Assembly: GCA_947479935.1 (NCBI GenBank)
Contig: CANKBG010000011.1
Location: 1-64,000 of the forward strand
Direction: 5' to 3'
Length of the DNA: 64,000 nucleotides
Source of the DNA: Comamonadaceae bacterium
Lineage (GTDB): Bacteria > Pseudomonadota > Gammaproteobacteria > Burkholderiales > Burkholderiaceae_C
Shown here: positions 975 through 64,000 of the stretch, one piece after another
How the letters are laid out: every line of letters starts with the position of its first letter
Numbering within the stretch: position 1 is the first letter of the stretch
Made by a program: the position numbers and the translations under genes
The notes under the pieces: model-generated
Database searches by the model: none
Seen by the model: only the letters and a program-made list of their open reading frames with translations
Told to the model about the DNA's origin: nothing

Positions 975-1967
975 ATGAAACTGCTTCACACTTTCGCCGT
1001 CAACGTAGTTGGCCTTTTTCTCGTCGCCGTGCTTCCGGCTGCCCATGCCCAGGTCAACGCCGCGCAAGACTATCCAAATAAGCCTGTACGCATTCTGCTC
1101 GGCTTCCCGCCGGGCCAGGCCACCGATGTGCTGGCACGCGCAGTTGCATTCGAATTGACCAAGAACCTTGGTCAACAATTTTATGTAGACAATCGGCCCG
1201 GAGCTGCCGGCATCATCGCAACCGAAATGGCAATCAAAGCGGAGCCAGATGGCTATACGTTGCTGGCTACCTCGAGTGGCCCGCTGGCAGTCAACCCTGC
1301 GCTTTACACCAAGCTGCCTTACAACGTTTCGCGCGATCTGGCGATGGTGTCCGGTCTCGGTATCGTGCCGTATGCGGTATTGGTCAACACCAAATCACCG
1401 ATCAAGGATATAGGGGGGTTGATTGAAGCCGCCAAAGCCAATCCGGGCAAGTTGAATTACGGTTCGGGCGGCAGCGGTGTGACCAACCACCTTGCTACTG
1501 AGAGCTTTAAGTTAGCGGCAGGCATCAACATGCAACACGTACCCTACAAAGGCGGACCGGCTGCAGTCAGCGACTTGATTGGCGGTCAGATCGACGTCAT
1601 GTTCGAAACCCTGGCGGGAACCATTTCTTTAATCAAGGACAATCGCCTGCGGCCGATTGCGGTCTCGAGCATTGCGCGCACCGGGGTTCTGCCCGATGTA
1701 CCTACCATTTCGGAAAGCGGTGTCAGCGGTTTTTCGGCCGTGCCGTGGGTCGCTATGGCGGCACCAGCAAAAGTGCCACGCCCCATCATCGAAAAACTCA
1801 ATTCCGAGATTAACAAGATTCTCAATTCGGCAGAAATCCGTACCCGCTTTCAGTCACTGGGAACCGAACCGATGGTCATTGCACCGGATCAGTTGACTGA
1901 ATACCTGAAAGCGGAAACCACCAAGTGGGCTGCGGCTGTCAAGGCATCGGGCGCCAAGGTCGACTGA
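975..1967 (+). CDS. Bug/TctC-family tripartite tricarboxylate transporter receptor
   Basis: Periplasmic solute receptor of the tripartite tricarboxylate transporter (TTT) class; such proteins bind carboxylates and hand them to a TctAB membrane pair. The start at 975 gives 330 aa and is preceded by AGGAGG at 962-967; an in-frame upstream extension from 897 has no such site. The protein begins with a Sec signal peptide ending near AHAQ, then the family blocks FPPGQATDVLAR and DNRPGAAG and the pocket region YGSGGSGVTNHLATE. No TctA or TctB gene is in the window, so it must borrow a membrane partner encoded elsewhere. It is the first gene of the operon with PrpD-, CaiB- and CitE-like enzymes, so its ligand is probably their substrate. 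Confidence 0.9.
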   Translation: MKLLHTFAVNVVGLFLVAVLPAAHAQVNAAQDYPNKPVRILLGFPPGQATDVLARAVAFELTKNLGQQFYVDNRPGAAGIIATEMAIKAEPDGYTLLATSSGPLAVNPALYTKLPYNVSRDLAMVSGLGIVPYAVLVNTKSPIKDIGGLIEAAKANPGKLNYGSGGSGVTNHLATESFKLAAGINMQHVPYKGGPAAVSDLIGGQIDVMFETLAGTISLIKDNRLRPIAVSSIARTGVLPDVPTISESGVSGFSAVPWVAMAAPAKVPRPIIEKLNSEINKILNSAEIRTRFQSLGTEPMVIAPDQLTEYLKAETTKWAAAVKASGAKVD

Positions 1968-59149: not shown

Positions 59150-60541
59150 ATGCATATTCATATTTTGGGCATTTGCGGAACCTTCATGGGCGGCTTGGCC
59201 GCTTTGGCCAGAGAAGCCGGCCACCGCGTCACGGGCTGCGATGTGGGCGTCTACCCTCCCATGAGCGACCAACTGCAAGCTTTGGGCATTGAGTTAATTG
59301 AGGGCTTTGGCAGCGATCAAATGAAGCTCAGGCCAGATCTTTATGTCATTGGCAACGTGGTCAGCCGCAGCCGACTCCCTTCGGGCGAGCCCAAGTTTCC
59401 TTTGATGGAAGCCATTTTGGAAGCAGGTGCACCCTATACCAGCGGGCCCCAATGGTTGTCTGAACATGTACTTCAGGGCCGGCACGTCATGGCGGTGGCT
59501 GGCACACATGGCAAAACATCCACTACGTCGATGTTGTCTTGGATTTTGGAAGCGGCTGGCTTGAAACCTGGCTTCTTGGTAGGCGGTGTGCCTTTGAACT
59601 TTGGCGTTTCGGCACGGTTAGGCCAAGTGGCTTCCGGCCACTCGCGCAACTATTTTGTCATTGAGGCCGATGAATATGACACCGCCTTCTTTGACAAGCG
59701 CAGCAAGTTTGTTCACTATCGACCCCGAACAGCCATCTTGAATAATTTGGAATTTGACCATGCCGATATCTTCGACGACCTGAACGCCATCGAAAGGCAA
59801 TTTCATCATCTGGTCCGCACAGTCCCTGCCAAGGGTCGACTGGTGGTGAACGGTTTAGAAGAAAGTTTGACGCGCGTATTGGCACAAGGTTGCTGGAGCG
59901 AGGTTAGAACTTTTGGCACGACCGTGAGTGACTTTTCAGCGCTGGGTGAGCCAAACAATTTTGACGTTCTTCAACAGGGCCGCAAAGTGGCACAAGCCAC
60001 ATGGGAACTTGGCGGCGTTCACAATCAACTCAACGCCTTGGCTGCCATCGCGGCCGCTGAACATGTGGGTGTATCACCCGAGGTGGCCGCTCACGCTTTG
60101 GCAAGTTTTCAAAACGTCAAGCGACGCATGGAATTGCGCGGTACGGTGGGCGGCATCAAAGTTTACGACGACTTTGCACATCACCCCACTGCCATTCGCA
60201 CCACCCTCGATGGCCTCAGAAGGCAAATTGGGCCTCAGCAACGCATCTTGGCTATTTTCGAGCCCCGCAGCAACACCATGAAATTGGGCACGATGAAGTC
60301 GCAACTGCCTTGGAGCTTGGCGCAAGCCGATCTCTCCTTCTGCCACAGCGGCGGCTTAGATTGGGATGCCCATGCAGCCCTAGCGGAAATGGGCCACAAA
60401 GCCCAAGTCGCAGCCAACATCGATGAATTGGTCAAACAAGTCATGTCACAAGTCAAACCTGGCGACCATCTTTTGTGCATGAGCAACGGAGGTTTTGGCG
60501 GCGTGCATGAGAAGCTATTAAATGCTTTGCAATTAGCTTAA
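59150..60541 (+). CDS. mpl: UDP-N-acetylmuramate:tripeptide ligase Mpl
   Basis: Cell-wall recycling ligase that joins UDP-MurNAc to the tripeptide L-Ala-gamma-D-Glu-mDAP, 463 aa. It starts MHIHILGICGTFMGGLAALA; the Mur-ligase ATP loop is VAGTHGKTSTTSM (about 110-122), followed by FVIEADEYDTAFFDKRSKF (seen as IEADEYDTAFFDKRSKF), LNNLEFDHADIFD and VYDDFAHHPTAI. The EYDTAFFDKRSK block separates Mpl from MurC. It works in the same recycling route as ampD, also in this window. Confidence 0.95.
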   Translation: MHIHILGICGTFMGGLAALAREAGHRVTGCDVGVYPPMSDQLQALGIELIEGFGSDQMKLRPDLYVIGNVVSRSRLPSGEPKFPLMEAILEAGAPYTSGPQWLSEHVLQGRHVMAVAGTHGKTSTTSMLSWILEAAGLKPGFLVGGVPLNFGVSARLGQVASGHSRNYFVIEADEYDTAFFDKRSKFVHYRPRTAILNNLEFDHADIFDDLNAIERQFHHLVRTVPAKGRLVVNGLEESLTRVLAQGCWSEVRTFGTTVSDFSALGEPNNFDVLQQGRKVAQATWELGGVHNQLNALAAIAAAEHVGVSPEVAAHALASFQNVKRRMELRGTVGGIKVYDDFAHHPTAIRTTLDGLRRQIGPQQRILAIFEPRSNTMKLGTMKSQLPWSLAQADLSFCHSGGLDWDAHAALAEMGHKAQVAANIDELVKQVMSQVKPGDHLLCMSNGGFGGVHEKLLNALQLA

Positions 60542-60571
60542 AAAAGAGCCCACTTCAATGGGCGCTCTTTG
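60541..60571. terminator. terminator between mpl and aroG
   Basis: AAAGAG (60544-60549) and CCCA (60550-60553) pair with TGGG (60560-60563) and CTCTTT (60566-60571) around a 6-base loop, with two unpaired bases in the right arm. An A-run at 60541-60546 gives a U-tract on the minus strand, so it serves aroG best; it may also stop mpl transcripts. Confidence 0.7.
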
Positions 60572-60594
60572 CAAAAGCTCGAAACTGAACTGCT

Positions 60595-61713
60595 TTATTT
60601 CTTCCGTCGCCCTTCCACTGCTTTTGACAGAATGTCTAAAACTTTTTCGCTGTCGGGCCAGCCAAGGCAGGCATCCGTAATACTTTGCGCGTACTTCAAA
60701 GACGCTACTTCGTCCTTGCCAGGGGTGAATTTTTGTGCGCCGGCTTCAAGATGACTCTCGACCATCACACCAAAAATTTGCGTTGAACCTTTTCTCACTT
60801 GCGCAGCAATTTCTTGGGTCACCACCACTTGTCGCTCATGCTGCTTGCTGCTGTTGGCATGGCTGCAGTCGATCATCAGCTTAGGTCGCAACTTAGCGGC
60901 CTCTAAGTCTTTGCAAGCGGCATTCACACTGGCTTCATCGTAGTTGGGCGCTTTACCACCGCGCAAAATCACATGGCAATCCGGATTGCCCAGCGTTTGA
61001 ACAATGGCCACTTGTCCGTTTTTATGAACCGACAAAAAGTGATGACCGCGCTCAGCGGCTTGAATGGCATCGGTGGCAATTTTGATGTTGCCATCGGTGC
61101 CATTTTTAAAGCCAATGGGGGCCGACAAGCCTGAGGCCAGCTCTCGGTGAACTTGACTTTCAGTGGTGCGGGCACCTATGGCGCCCCAACTGATCAAGTC
61201 GCCAATGTATTGCGGCGAAATGACGTCCAAGAACTCACTGCCTGCAGGTAAACCTTGACGGTTTATTTCAATCAACAATTGCCGTGCAATGCGCAGGCCT
61301 TCGTCAATGCGGAAGCTTTCATCCAAATACGGATCGTTGATCAAGCCCTTCCAACCCACGGTGGTTCTTGGCTTTTCAAAATACACGCGCATCACAATTT
61401 CCAAAGTACCTTGGTACTTGTCGCGCAGCGGTTTCAAACGACGTGCGTAATCCAAAGCGGCGGCAGGGTCGTGTATGGAGCACGGGCCAATGACCACCAA
61501 CAAGCGGTCGTCTTTACCAATCATGATGTTGTGAATCTTTTTTCGCGTTTGCGAAATCAAAGTTTCCACATTTGTTCCCGCGATTGGGAAAAAGCGCATC
61601 AAGTGCTCTGGGGGCGGCAACACGGTAATGTCCTTGATGCGTTCGTCGTCGGTCTGCCCCTGGCGGTCCAACAGGCTTGCATAACGTGGCTCCGAACTGG
61701 CTTTGGTGTTCAT
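60595..61713 (-). CDS. aroG: 3-deoxy-7-phosphoheptulonate synthase, class I
   Basis: First enzyme of the shikimate pathway, joining PEP and erythrose 4-phosphate, 372 aa. Class I (AroFGH) marks are VIGPCSIHDPAAALDYARRL, MRVYFEKPRTTVGWKGLINDP (seen as FEKPRTTVGWKGLINDP), GARTTESQVHRELASGLS, HVILRGG and DCSHANSSK. ATG 61713 follows AGGAG seven bases upstream. The 5' region holds a leader peptide rich in Phe and Tyr plus a terminator and a competing antiterminator, so expression is very likely controlled by attenuation in answer to charged tRNA-Phe and tRNA-Tyr. By analogy the enzyme itself may be feedback-inhibited by Phe or Tyr. Confidence 0.95.
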   Translation of the reverse strand: MNTKASSEPRYASLLDRQGQTDDERIKDITVLPPPEHLMRFFPIAGTNVETLISQTRKKIHNIMIGKDDRLLVVIGPCSIHDPAAALDYARRLKPLRDKYQGTLEIVMRVYFEKPRTTVGWKGLINDPYLDESFRIDEGLRIARQLLIEINRQGLPAGSEFLDVISPQYIGDLISWGAIGARTTESQVHRELASGLSAPIGFKNGTDGNIKIATDAIQAAERGHHFLSVHKNGQVAIVQTLGNPDCHVILRGGKAPNYDEASVNAACKDLEAAKLRPKLMIDCSHANSSKQHERQVVVTQEIAAQVRKGSTQIFGVMVESHLEAGAQKFTPGKDEVASLKYAQSITDACLGWPDSEKVLDILSKAVEGRRKK

Positions 61714-61766
61714 TGGGTGCTCCTGCTTAAAAAATATGCGATTGAAATTTAAGAGTGGGTTGTGAC

Positions 61767-61800
61767 AAAAAAAAACCGCCGGGGGTTGAGTCCGGCGGTT
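61767..61800 (-). terminator. attenuator terminator in the aroG leader
   Basis: On the minus strand AACCGCCGG (61800-61792) pairs perfectly with CCGGCGGTT (61782-61774) around a 9-base loop, followed by a run of nine U (61775-61767). It lies 53 bp before the aroG ATG and 20 bp after the leader stop codon, the position of a transcription attenuator. Confidence 0.9.
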
Positions 61801-61843
61801 GGTAGAGGGGTTCAGTGACTTATGCGCTGGCCTCTCGTCCGCC
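61792..61843 (-). promoter_or_regulatory. antiterminator alternative in the aroG leader
   Basis: In the transcript GGCGG (61843-61839) inside leader codons 18-20 can pair with CCGCC (61798-61794), the left arm of the terminator, and AGAGG (61835-61831) with CCTCT (61808-61804). The two helices stack around small internal loops. This pairing excludes the terminator. The left half is inside the leader reading frame, downstream of the Phe/Tyr codons, so ribosome position decides which form arises. Confidence 0.75.
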
Positions 61844-61894
61844 TAGGACTGAGAATGCAAAATAAAAGCTGTAAAAGCAAAAGCACTTGTTCAT
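61820..61894 (-). CDS. aroG leader peptide, Phe/Tyr-rich
   Basis: A 24-codon frame from ATG 61894 to TAA 61820-61822, too short for normal gene calls. Its first part reads MNKCFCFYSFYFAF: five Phe and two Tyr in codons 5-14. It is followed by the attenuator hairpin and aroG, the exact layout of the pheA and pheST leaders of enterobacteria. No good ribosome-binding site is visible; a possible extended -10 (TGATACATT, about 61900-61908) so close upstream would give a nearly leaderless message. Translation is inferred from codon content and position. Confidence 0.8.
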   Translation of the reverse strand: MNKCFCFYSFYFAFSVLGGREASA

Positions 61895-61944
61895 GGGATG
61901 AGAATGTATCACAAGTTTCAGATCGAATTCTGACTGGGCGCGAA

Positions 61945-63405
61945 TTAAGCCGTGCCACCCACGGTCAGTCCTTCAATGCGCAGCGTAGGTTGCCCCACTC
62001 CCACAGGCACACTTTGTCCCTCTTTGCCGCAAACACCCACACCTGAGTCCAAACGCATGTCGTTGCCAATCATGCTGACTTGTTTCAAACACTCGGGGCC
62101 ACTGCCCACCAAAGTGGCGCCTTTCACGGGGTATTGAATCTTGCCGTTTTCCACCCAGTAGGCTTCGCTGGCAGAGAACACAAATTTGCCGCTGGTAATG
62201 TCCACCTGGCCGCCGCCAAAGTTGGTGGCATACAAACCTTTTTTGATGCTGGCCACAATTTCTTCGGGTGGTTTATCGCCCCCCAACATGTAGGTGTTGG
62301 TCATGCGCGGCATCGGAATGTGCGCATAGCTTTCGCGGCGCCCATTGCCAGTTGGCTTTACACCCATCAAACGCGCATTCATGGCGTCTTGAATGTAGCC
62401 CTTCAAAATGCCATCTTCAATGAGCACATTGCGCTGACTTGGGCAGCCTTCATCGTCCACATTCAAAGAGCCACGGCGATCCGAAATGGTGCCATCGTCT
62501 AGCACCGTCACGCCCTTGGCTGCCACGCGTTTGCCAATCATGCCGCTAAAGGCGCTGGACCCTTTTCTGTTGAAGTCGCCTTCTAAACCGTGGCCTATGG
62601 CCTCGTGCAACAGCACGCCAGGCCATCCTGAACCCAAGACCACAGTCATCACACCGGCCGGTGCGGGGCGCGCATCCAAGTTGGTCAATGCCGCATGCAC
62701 AGCATCGTTGACATAGGTGTTGACCATGGCATCGTCAAAATAGGCCAAGCCGAAGCGACCTCCTCCACCACCACTGCCCACCTCACGACGACCGTTTTGC
62801 TCGGCAATGACTGTGACCGAAAGTCTGACCAAAGGTCGAACGTCGGCGGCCAATGTGCCATCGGCACGCGCCACCATGACCACGTCGTATTCGCTGGCCA
62901 AGCCCGCCATGACCTGCACCACGCGCGGGTCTTTGGCGCGGGCCAAATGCTCCACTTTTTCTAGCAACTGTACTTTATCAGTGCTGTTCAAAGTACCCAT
63001 GGGATCGAGCGAAGGGTACAAAGAACGAATACCGGCAACTCTGCGCGCAGGCACTTTCGCTTTTCGATTTTGATGCGCTTTCGCAATGGCACGAACCGTC
63101 AGAGCCGCGTCCATCAGGGACGCTTCGGAAATGTCGTCTGAATAAGCAAAGGCTGTTTTTTCACCCGCTACAGCGCGAACTCCCACGCCCTGGTCAATGC
63201 TGAAGCTGCCTGTTTTGACAATGCCTTCTTCCAAACTCCACCCCTCTGAACGGGTGTATTGAAAATACAAATCGGCATCGTCTACTTTGTGAGCCTGAAT
63301 AGATGTCAGCGCCTTGGACAGATGAGACTCATCCAAGCCAAAAGGTTCGAGCAATAGAGATCTGGCCGTGGCCAGGCGTTCAATGGTGGGTTCGCGTGAG
63401 ATCAT
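61945..63405 (-). CDS. tldD: metalloprotease TldD
   Basis: TldD subunit of the TldD/TldE (PmbA) zinc protease that processes small peptides and helps degrade CcdA-type antitoxins, 486 aa. The zinc motif HEAIGHGLEGDFNRKGSS (HExxxH) lies near residue 265-282, and the Gly-rich stretch EVGSGGGGGRFGLAYF precedes it. TldE is not adjacent. It is followed downstream by the aroG leader without a clear terminator of its own other than the attenuator, so some aroG transcription may come from tldD. Confidence 0.95.
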   Translation of the reverse strand: MISREPTIERLATARSLLLEPFGLDESHLSKALTSIQAHKVDDADLYFQYTRSEGWSLEEGIVKTGSFSIDQGVGVRAVAGEKTAFAYSDDISEASLMDAALTVRAIAKAHQNRKAKVPARRVAGIRSLYPSLDPMGTLNSTDKVQLLEKVEHLARAKDPRVVQVMAGLASEYDVVMVARADGTLAADVRPLVRLSVTVIAEQNGRREVGSGGGGGRFGLAYFDDAMVNTYVNDAVHAALTNLDARPAPAGVMTVVLGSGWPGVLLHEAIGHGLEGDFNRKGSSAFSGMIGKRVAAKGVTVLDDGTISDRRGSLNVDDEGCPSQRNVLIEDGILKGYIQDAMNARLMGVKPTGNGRRESYAHIPMPRMTNTYMLGGDKPPEEIVASIKKGLYATNFGGGQVDITSGKFVFSASEAYWVENGKIQYPVKGATLVGSGPECLKQVSMIGNDMRLDSGVGVCGKEGQSVPVGVGQPTLRIEGLTVGGTA

Positions 63406-63456
63406 GTTGCCATTGTAGGCAAGCCTTGAAAGCCCTGCACAAGGAAGCTGGATTTT

Positions 63457-64000
63457 TTAGGTTTGAACCAAGCGCTTGGCCTTGGCAATGGACATCAAAA
63501 TGCCCAAGCCCAATCCAAGAGTGACCATGGCTGTGCCGCCATAACTGATGAATGGCAACGGCACGCCCACCACCGGCAAAATGCCACTGACCATGCCCAT
63601 GTTGACAAAGGCGTAGGTGAAGAAAATCATGCTGACGCTACCAGCCAATAAACGGGTGAACAAGGTGGGCGCCTCACGCGCAATGACCAAGCCCCTGAAG
63701 ACCAGAAAGAAAAAGCCAGCGATCAAAAGAAGCGTCCCCAGCAAGCCAAATTCTTCAGAAAAGGCTGCAAAAATAAAATCGGTGGTTCTCTCGGGGATGA
63801 ACTCCAAGTGAGTTTGTGTGCCCTGCATAAATCCTTTGCCCCAGAAGCCACCCGAACCTATGGCAATCATGCCTTGAATGATGTGAAAACCCTTACCCAA
63901 AGGGTCTCTCGCAGGATCTAGCAGGGTACAAATACGTTGTCGCTGGTACTCATGCAAGACTTTCCAATCCACACCATCGGCACACAACTGCGACTCAAAA
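63457..64000 (-). CDS. rodA: rod shape-determining protein RodA, C-terminal part
   Basis: Peptidoglycan glycosyltransferase of the SEDS family; the gene runs off the right edge and its start is missing. At least 180 residues are present: the periplasmic loop with [40 protein letters not shown] (seen as [18 protein letters not shown]), [17 protein letters not shown] and the end [20 protein letters not shown]. These are the RodA/FtsW signatures, with [15 protein letters not shown] favouring RodA. The frame is open to base 64000. It acts with PBP2 in side-wall growth. Confidence 0.93.

Follow-up and report, generated by a model that had tools for sequence, protein, structure and literature searches.

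A phenylalanine/tyrosine-codon transcription attenuator predicted before aroG in Burkholderiales

Upstream of aroG in the genome of a Comamonadaceae bacterium, within the 64,000-nt stretch of DNA that we analysed (the window), a short frame rich in Phe and Tyr codons is followed by a terminator, and the same arrangement precedes aroG at 89 of the 110 loci that we compared. We propose that this element is a ribosome-mediated transcription attenuator of the trp/phe type, through which the supply of charged aromatic tRNA would set aroG transcription, and we put the probability of this reading at about 0.9. The downstream gene belongs to the pathway of the amino acids that would be sensed, since DAHP synthase is its first step.

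All features of the window locus lie on the minus strand. The leader frame (61820..61894) has an ATG start and 24 codons, encoding MNKCFCFYSFYFAFSVLGGREASA and ending at a stop codon; seven of the 24 codons, at positions 5, 7, 8, 10, 11, 12 and 14, specify Phe or Tyr. Behind the stop codon come 19 bases, a perfect 9-bp hairpin with a 9-nt loop (61800-61774) and a run of nine T (61767..61775) whose first two bases also serve to close the stem; another 53 bases lead to aroG. The left arm of this terminator is AACCGCCGG (arm 3, 61792..61800), and its right arm, supported by both sequence and comparison, is CCGGCGGTT (arm 4, 61774..61782). A preliminary description had claimed a 24-codon leader with seven Phe/Tyr codons in positions 5-14 and a perfect 9-bp terminator with nine U, and both are exact (61894-61820 and 61800-61767), with two of the T overlapping the stem. 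Arm 2 (61831..61843) lies within leader codons 18-22 and forms the 5ʹ side of the predicted antiterminator, with GGCGG at 61843-61839 and AGAGG at 61835-61831. In the fold, the 3ʹ partner of AGAGG is CCTCT (61804..61808), which makes the inner antiterminator helix, and CCGCC (61798-61794) in arm 3 is common to antiterminator and terminator. Arm 1 (61846..61858) is predicted to form the left side of a 1:2 hairpin with 61840-61830, a hairpin that is absent from the preliminary description. The presumed controlled gene, aroG (60595..61713), has a Shine-Dalgarno-like AGGAG at 61720..61724 and encodes a type I DAHP synthase of 372 aa, as judged from Pfam (DAHP_synth_1, E = 1.2e-94) and NCBIfam (TIGR00034 aroFGH, 536 bits, which exceeds the cut-off; NF006723 AroG, 547.4 bits, slightly under the cut-off of 568). 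There is one match to type I DAHP synthase genes in the window's genome, the assembly of which is 93.8% complete.

The leader and terminator are confirmed as a real arrangement, beyond chance. Among 949 ATG frames of 12-40 codons, drawn from both strands of the window rather than from the whole genome, only one has at least six Phe/Tyr codons within 12 codons. This sole frame is the aroG leader, and the terminator sits behind it. When the 277-nt upstream region was dinucleotide-shuffled 2000 times, a frame with at least seven Phe/Tyr codons within 12 never arose. The whole leader of the window folds with z = -2.45 (2 of 200 shuffles are equally stable), and the region 61861-61830, which holds the 1:2 hairpin, folds at -11.4 kcal/mol. 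When the right terminator arm is left out, GGCGG/CCGCC plus AGAGG/CCTCT is the minimum-energy fold (-16.6 kcal/mol), in agreement with the earlier claim of a two-helix antiterminator that starts in codons 18-22 and uses the left arm of the terminator. The antiterminator stretch of the window, taken alone, is not significant (z = -1.42; 16 of 200 shuffles equally stable), and hence the case rests on comparison. A generic scan of 61500-62200 returned no promoter-like and no terminator-like sites; it missed the terminator because its loop limit of 8 excludes the 9-nt loop.

For the comparison we used 110 aroG loci, the window included: 80 from named genomes (L002-L081) and 30 from the window's genome and its relatives (L001 and L082-L110), with some repeats (L083 and L002 are the same sequence region). 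A leader was defined as an ATG frame with at least four Phe/Tyr codons in 12 codons, at most 450 nt upstream of aroG. Such a leader was found at 91 of the 110 loci, and a terminator stands behind 89 of the 91 (all except L067 and L071); the 89 loci with both elements hold 86 distinct leaders. Among the 19 loci lacking an ATG leader, two (L012 and L090) are truncated where their contigs end, L046 carries a GTG-start leader and a terminator, and L014 has a terminator, the leader frame not being found. Neither element was found at the further 15, for example Polynucleobacter L030, L031 and L033 and gammaproteobacterial L063, L074 and L080. The preliminary description had called for an alignment of aroG upstream regions, looking for a kept Phe/Tyr frame and covariation; in our comparison the frame, its codons, the terminator and the competing antiterminator are kept in many relatives. 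Some contigs in the set come from MAGs labelled Planctomycetota, Gemmataceae, Verrucomicrobiia, Anaerolineae and Devosia (L044, L048, L049, L071 and L079). Their AroG proteins are 61-68% identical to betaproteobacterial AroG, reflecting either wrong binning or transfer, and one of these contigs, L079, even has a leader and terminator.

Could the hairpin be a plain terminator of the upstream gene, tldD (61945-63405, on the same strand), and the Phe/Tyr frame an accident? The end of tldD is only 51 bases 5ʹ of the leader ATG, and tldD lies within the fetched flank at 74 of the 89 loci with the element; the other 15 keep the element with no tldD in the fetched flank, although at least one of these flanks may be cut by a contig end. 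Conversely, at L152 and L156 the end of tldD precedes aroG, yet there is no Phe/Tyr leader. Frame-specific Phe/Tyr enrichment and a competing arm would both be superfluous for a plain tldD terminator, and we consider this explanation very unlikely.

The leader frame of the proposed attenuator is, by its pattern, a real coding sequence. In the best 12 codons of the 86 distinct leaders, Phe, Tyr and Trp codons average 7.0 in the leader frame and 2.6 and 2.5 in the two others; the mean is biased upward because the leaders were chosen for Phe/Tyr content, and the contrast between frames partly likewise. The third base of the Phe/Tyr codons varies (TTT 273, TTC 124, TAT 71, TAC 82). Pairwise pooled dN/dS, with no tree correction, is 0.44 for codons 5-14, 0.64 for codons 15-24 and 1.17 for codons 2-4 across 35 leaders aligned at codon 18; in 10 Burkholderia-type leaders, codons 3-12 give 0.11. 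A Trp codon is present in 61 of the 86 distinct leaders, usually as FWFS, whereas in the window leader and those of its nearest relatives FAFS stands in its place, with no Trp codon. Since most relatives also carry the Trp codon, the ancestral signal was probably wider than Phe/Tyr. Hence, the earlier reading of a Phe/Tyr leader is borne out by the kept Phe/Tyr codons but is too narrow for the 61 leaders with Trp.

Arm 2 (GGCGG) was located at 88 of the 89 loci, counting L005 (GGCCG) and L050 (GGTGG) and with a manual assignment to the last GGCGG at L061; no arm 2 was found at L079, which was left out of the arm statistics. CCGCC in arm 3 and GGCGG in arm 4 are common to all 88, such that arm 2, inside the leader, and arm 4, in the terminator, compete for the same CCGCC. 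Relative to the leader frame, GGCGG is in frame 0 at 57 loci, in frame 2 at 30 and in frame 1 at one. At L022, L027, L028 and L029 the leader stop codon lies directly 3ʹ of GGCGG, and the GAGAGG that follows is still kept. Judging by sequence, conservation of the RNA arms does not depend on that of the peptide.

Evidence of covariation rests on the pair flanking the core, because the five core 2:3 pairs hardly vary. The base 5ʹ of GGCGG covaries, with C/G/C at most loci, T/A/T at Burkholderia-type loci and A/T/A at two Oxalobacteraceae-type loci. The flanking bases pair in 2:3 at 69 of 88 loci (shuffle mean 56.1) and in 3:4 at 87 of 88 (shuffle mean 68.7), counts reached in 0 of 5000 shuffles each, with the qualification that the shuffles ignore descent and that the changes are few and mostly between clades. 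With repeated rows collapsed, the counts are 30 of 40 for 2:3 and 39 of 40 for 3:4. The expectation of covariation in both hairpins thus holds for the flanking pair, which changes in step at most loci, but not for the window's own lineage, where the 2:3 flanking pair is broken, with A opposite G (“AG” at 14 of 88 loci). The inner antiterminator helix varies in sequence among loci. RNAalifold on the MAFFT alignment (A1) returned the terminator only, with 7 pairs, 2 of them with changes on both sides; the arm statistics were taken from sequence-anchored arms because A1 shifts GGCGG by at least one column in some clades.

The antiterminator stretch has z < -1 at all 86 distinct loci (mean z -2.8), and the evidence for the 1:2 hairpin is weak, with z < -1 at 40 of 86 (mean z -1.0). 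Mean energies are -21.2 kcal/mol for 2:3, -17.9 for 3:4 and -10.1 for 1:2, and 2:3 is stronger than 3:4 at 76 of 86 loci.

How would these arms act as a switch? We propose that transcription begins at the leader ATG or close beside it and that the leader is translated by a ribosome while RNA polymerase is still elongating. With Phe or Tyr tRNA in short supply, the ribosome would stall on codons 5-12 and leave arm 2 (GGCGG...AGAGG) free; arm 2 would then capture arm 3 (CCTCT...CCGCC) ahead of the synthesis of arm 4, and the polymerase would read into aroG. If the tRNAs were charged, the ribosome would cover arm 2, or arm 1 would re-pair with arm 2 after ribosome release. With arm 2 occupied, arm 3 would pair with arm 4, and transcription would stop at the T run. 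In most relatives, the Trp codon beside the Phe/Tyr run would make the leader a sensor of all three pathway end products; the window's lineage would have kept the Phe/Tyr signal alone. Our analysis shows the anatomy, its conservation, the covariation and the folding; translation of the leader and the amino-acid response are what we infer, and very probably the leader and switch sense a Phe/Tyr shortage in the classic attenuator manner.

Folding with the ribosome represented as a mask fits this scheme: when the ribosome stalls at a middle aromatic codon, the 2:3 helix is in place before arm 4 at 86 of 86 loci, and with the ribosome at the stop codon the terminator forms at 86 of 86. The stall-and-stop model of the preliminary description fits these folds. 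At the window locus, the spacing suggests that a ribosome at the stop codon would cover AGAGG and only part of GGCGG. At full-length equilibrium the terminator still wins despite a stalled ribosome (mean 0.90, versus 0.10 for the antiterminator). Therefore, the switch must be kinetic, depending on the order of synthesis. At 45 of 86 loci the last aromatic codon is only 9 nt 5ʹ of GGCGG, and a stall there would cover arm 2 because it is so close; each leader has 4-8 aromatic codons that lie 12 nt or more 5ʹ of GGCGG, and a ribosome stalled at these leaves arm 2 free.

In the same co-transcriptional folds, 2:3 forms before arm 4 at 39 of 86 loci even when there is no translation, as might be expected of a regulatory RNA that acts without translation, either a riboswitch or a leader bound by a protein, in which case the T-rich stretch would be a feature of the RNA. 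Riboswitches also use alternative terminator and antiterminator arms. Such an RNA is nonetheless highly improbable here, given that aromatic enrichment is confined to one frame and comes with third-base freedom, that the segment separating leader from terminator is short and variable, and that A1 has no conserved aptamer-like core. The Rfam 15 covariance models gave no credible match at E ≤ 5 in 60000-63500 and none at gathering score in eight relatives. Seven Rfam matches in 60000-63500, to eukaryotic microRNA/snoRNA, CRISPR-repeat and unrelated sRNA models, are far below gathering scores and were rejected as chance.

The mRNA carrying the attenuator is predicted to be leaderless, that is, to start at or next to the leader ATG. 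Of the 86 distinct leaders, 62 have a -10-like hexamer (usually TGNTACATT) ending 6-9 nt 5ʹ of their ATG; at L098 the finder took a worse site, although TACATT lies 6 nt before the ATG there too. At the window locus, the predicted extended -10 element is TGATACATT (61903..61911), 8 nt 5ʹ of the ATG, and a clear -35 box is not evident in the promoter scan of 61500-62200. The usual spacing between a -10 element and the transcription start would put the 5ʹ end of the mRNA at or next to the leader ATG, and a Shine-Dalgarno-like word at -18 to -4 of this ATG occurs in only 1 of 86 leaders. It is from these two observations that we infer the transcription start. At Burkholderia-type and Oxalobacteraceae-type loci, by contrast, the boxes are TATA-like and lie 20-40 nt upstream, which probably gives the mRNA a short 5ʹ leader. 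The preliminary description does not mention a leaderless start. A direct repeat resembling TGTCA-N5/6-TGTCA lies upstream of the -10 element at 14 of 89 loci (e.g. L092, L095 and L102), about 20-30 nt 5ʹ of it in several Limnohabitans-type loci, with a partial version in the window; this repeat may be a regulator site.

To follow the element further, we built a covariance model (R1) from 56 of the 87 distinct sequences, a construction that by itself accounts for several of the matches. Full-length matches (E ≤ 1e-12) occur once each in 42 of the 60 genomes of the relatives set: in 35 of 36 genomes of the genus (all but G021) and, for other families of the order, in 7 of 24. Partial matches (E 1e-6 to 0.01) cover only the terminator end and were taken as ordinary terminators. 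In a survey of the order, 94 of 349 genomes match at E ≤ 1e-6 (95 matches), and 46 of the 50 matches checked from these 95 stand directly before aroG (30 of the 30 best and 16 of the 20 weakest). At L166 the match is to a terminator only, with no aroG. The distribution within the order is wide but patchy, and many genomes have no match. Across the class, 5 of 274 genomes match, two of them outside the order and both in one family; these two matches also precede aroG and have leaders like MNAARASFYFWYYFPKPLAEEGLRSP, and Xanthomonas bonasiae (L081) has a leader of the same kind. No such leader precedes aroG at eight loci of other families that were selected for their lack of an R1 match. Second aroG copies in the genus (L141-L149, about 53-55% identical) have the leader in 0 of 9 cases; hence, one copy seems to be attenuated and the other not. 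At L150 (G057), an F/Y/W leader precedes only the first gene of a tandem aroG pair. In genus g83, a leader rich in F/Y/W codons and a terminator stand before a protein other than AroG (L163, about 1727-1874, minus strand; L164, 1111-1263, plus strand; L165, 1092-1244), the L164 leader being, as read by eye, MITFSAVFNAYFYWYRSSRRLQGASLD. No Pfam or NCBIfam model scores above cut-off against the downstream protein (L164:1320-1928), whose gene is a possible second target.

An attenuator leader can have roles beyond its own operon: in Sinorhizobium meliloti, a leaderless attenuator transcript is described as acting in trans (PMC7298713). If the aroG leader RNA, its peptide or both were mainly trans-acting, in the manner of rnTrpL/peTrpL, control of aroG would be secondary. 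The good conservation of the RNA arms would suit such a role, yet the element stays with aroG, and the C-termini of the peptides differ among clades in both frame and sequence, evidence against a conserved function of the peptide. We think there is little chance that trans action is the main role.

Extending the attenuator reading, we tentatively suggest, at somewhat less than even odds, that a pan-aromatic (Phe, Tyr and Trp), leaderless attenuator is a main control of shikimate entry in much of the Burkholderiales and in some Xanthomonadales-like relatives, and that window-like lineages narrowed the signal by losing the Trp codon. If so, one ribosome queue would read three end products together, as the ilv leaders do for branched-chain amino acids. 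E. coli aroG is controlled by DNA-binding regulators, not by attenuation. If the attenuator is conserved, many betaproteobacteria would, unlike E. coli, set the first aromatic step by tRNA charging. The leader series offers a natural range of codon compositions, with and without Trp, and the element would be an easily tested regulator, and a predicted naturally leaderless attenuator, in a culturable proteobacterial group.

Proteobacterial attenuators were reportedly treated by Vitreschak et al. in 2004. Our literature search, for which subscription papers and supplementary tables were mostly out of reach, recognised no description of an attenuator before aroG in Burkholderiales. Transcript studies of B. 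cenocepacia ascribe 82 short 5ʹ UTRs to attenuation or processing, and the available parts of their main text, tables excluded, do not name aroG. Within the literature searched, the predicted Burkholderiales aroG attenuator appears undescribed; its kind is known, and its target is known once, in another phylum.

Parallels in kind are the attenuators of E. coli pheA (pheL) and pheST, in which Phe codons, a stalled ribosome and alternative antiterminator and terminator structures act together (PMC11802643). Their targets are the Phe branch and Phe-tRNA synthetase rather than the first step of the shikimate pathway. In the same source, the E. coli DAHP synthase genes are described under TyrR and TrpR (PMC11802643). 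For gammaproteobacteria, attenuators have been proposed upstream of DAHP synthase genes, namely Vibrio aroA-tyrA (PMC1173090, Table 7) and Shewanella/E. coli aroF (PMC2659441, Table 3); as far as those tables and their accompanying text go, they concern another operon (with tyrA) in another lineage and are predictions or have indirect evidence. With regard to the predicted mRNA start, the attenuator leaders of S. meliloti trpL (PMC7298713, in the available text) and C. glutamicum ilvBNC (going by a reference title in PMC4046766) likewise start at the ATG or lack a ribosome binding site, but carry Trp or branched-chain codons and belong to other operons. The closest described system is Corynebacterium glutamicum aroR, a leader predicted earlier (PMC4046766), at which a stalled ribosome is reported to raise DAHP synthase transcription under Phe limitation (PMC11802643). 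As in the window, a leader precedes a DAHP synthase gene, in C. glutamicum that of the aroF operon; the aroR leader contains Phe-Tyr-Phe. Hence, the preliminary remark on novelty stands for Burkholderiales aroG but has to allow for the aroR-aroF leader already described. The available account of aroR reports three aromatic codons, versus seven in the window leader, and a response to Phe but not Tyr, with no mention of Trp. C. glutamicum is an actinobacterium and so of another phylum than the window bacterium, and aroR and the Burkholderiales leader are likely to have arisen independently.
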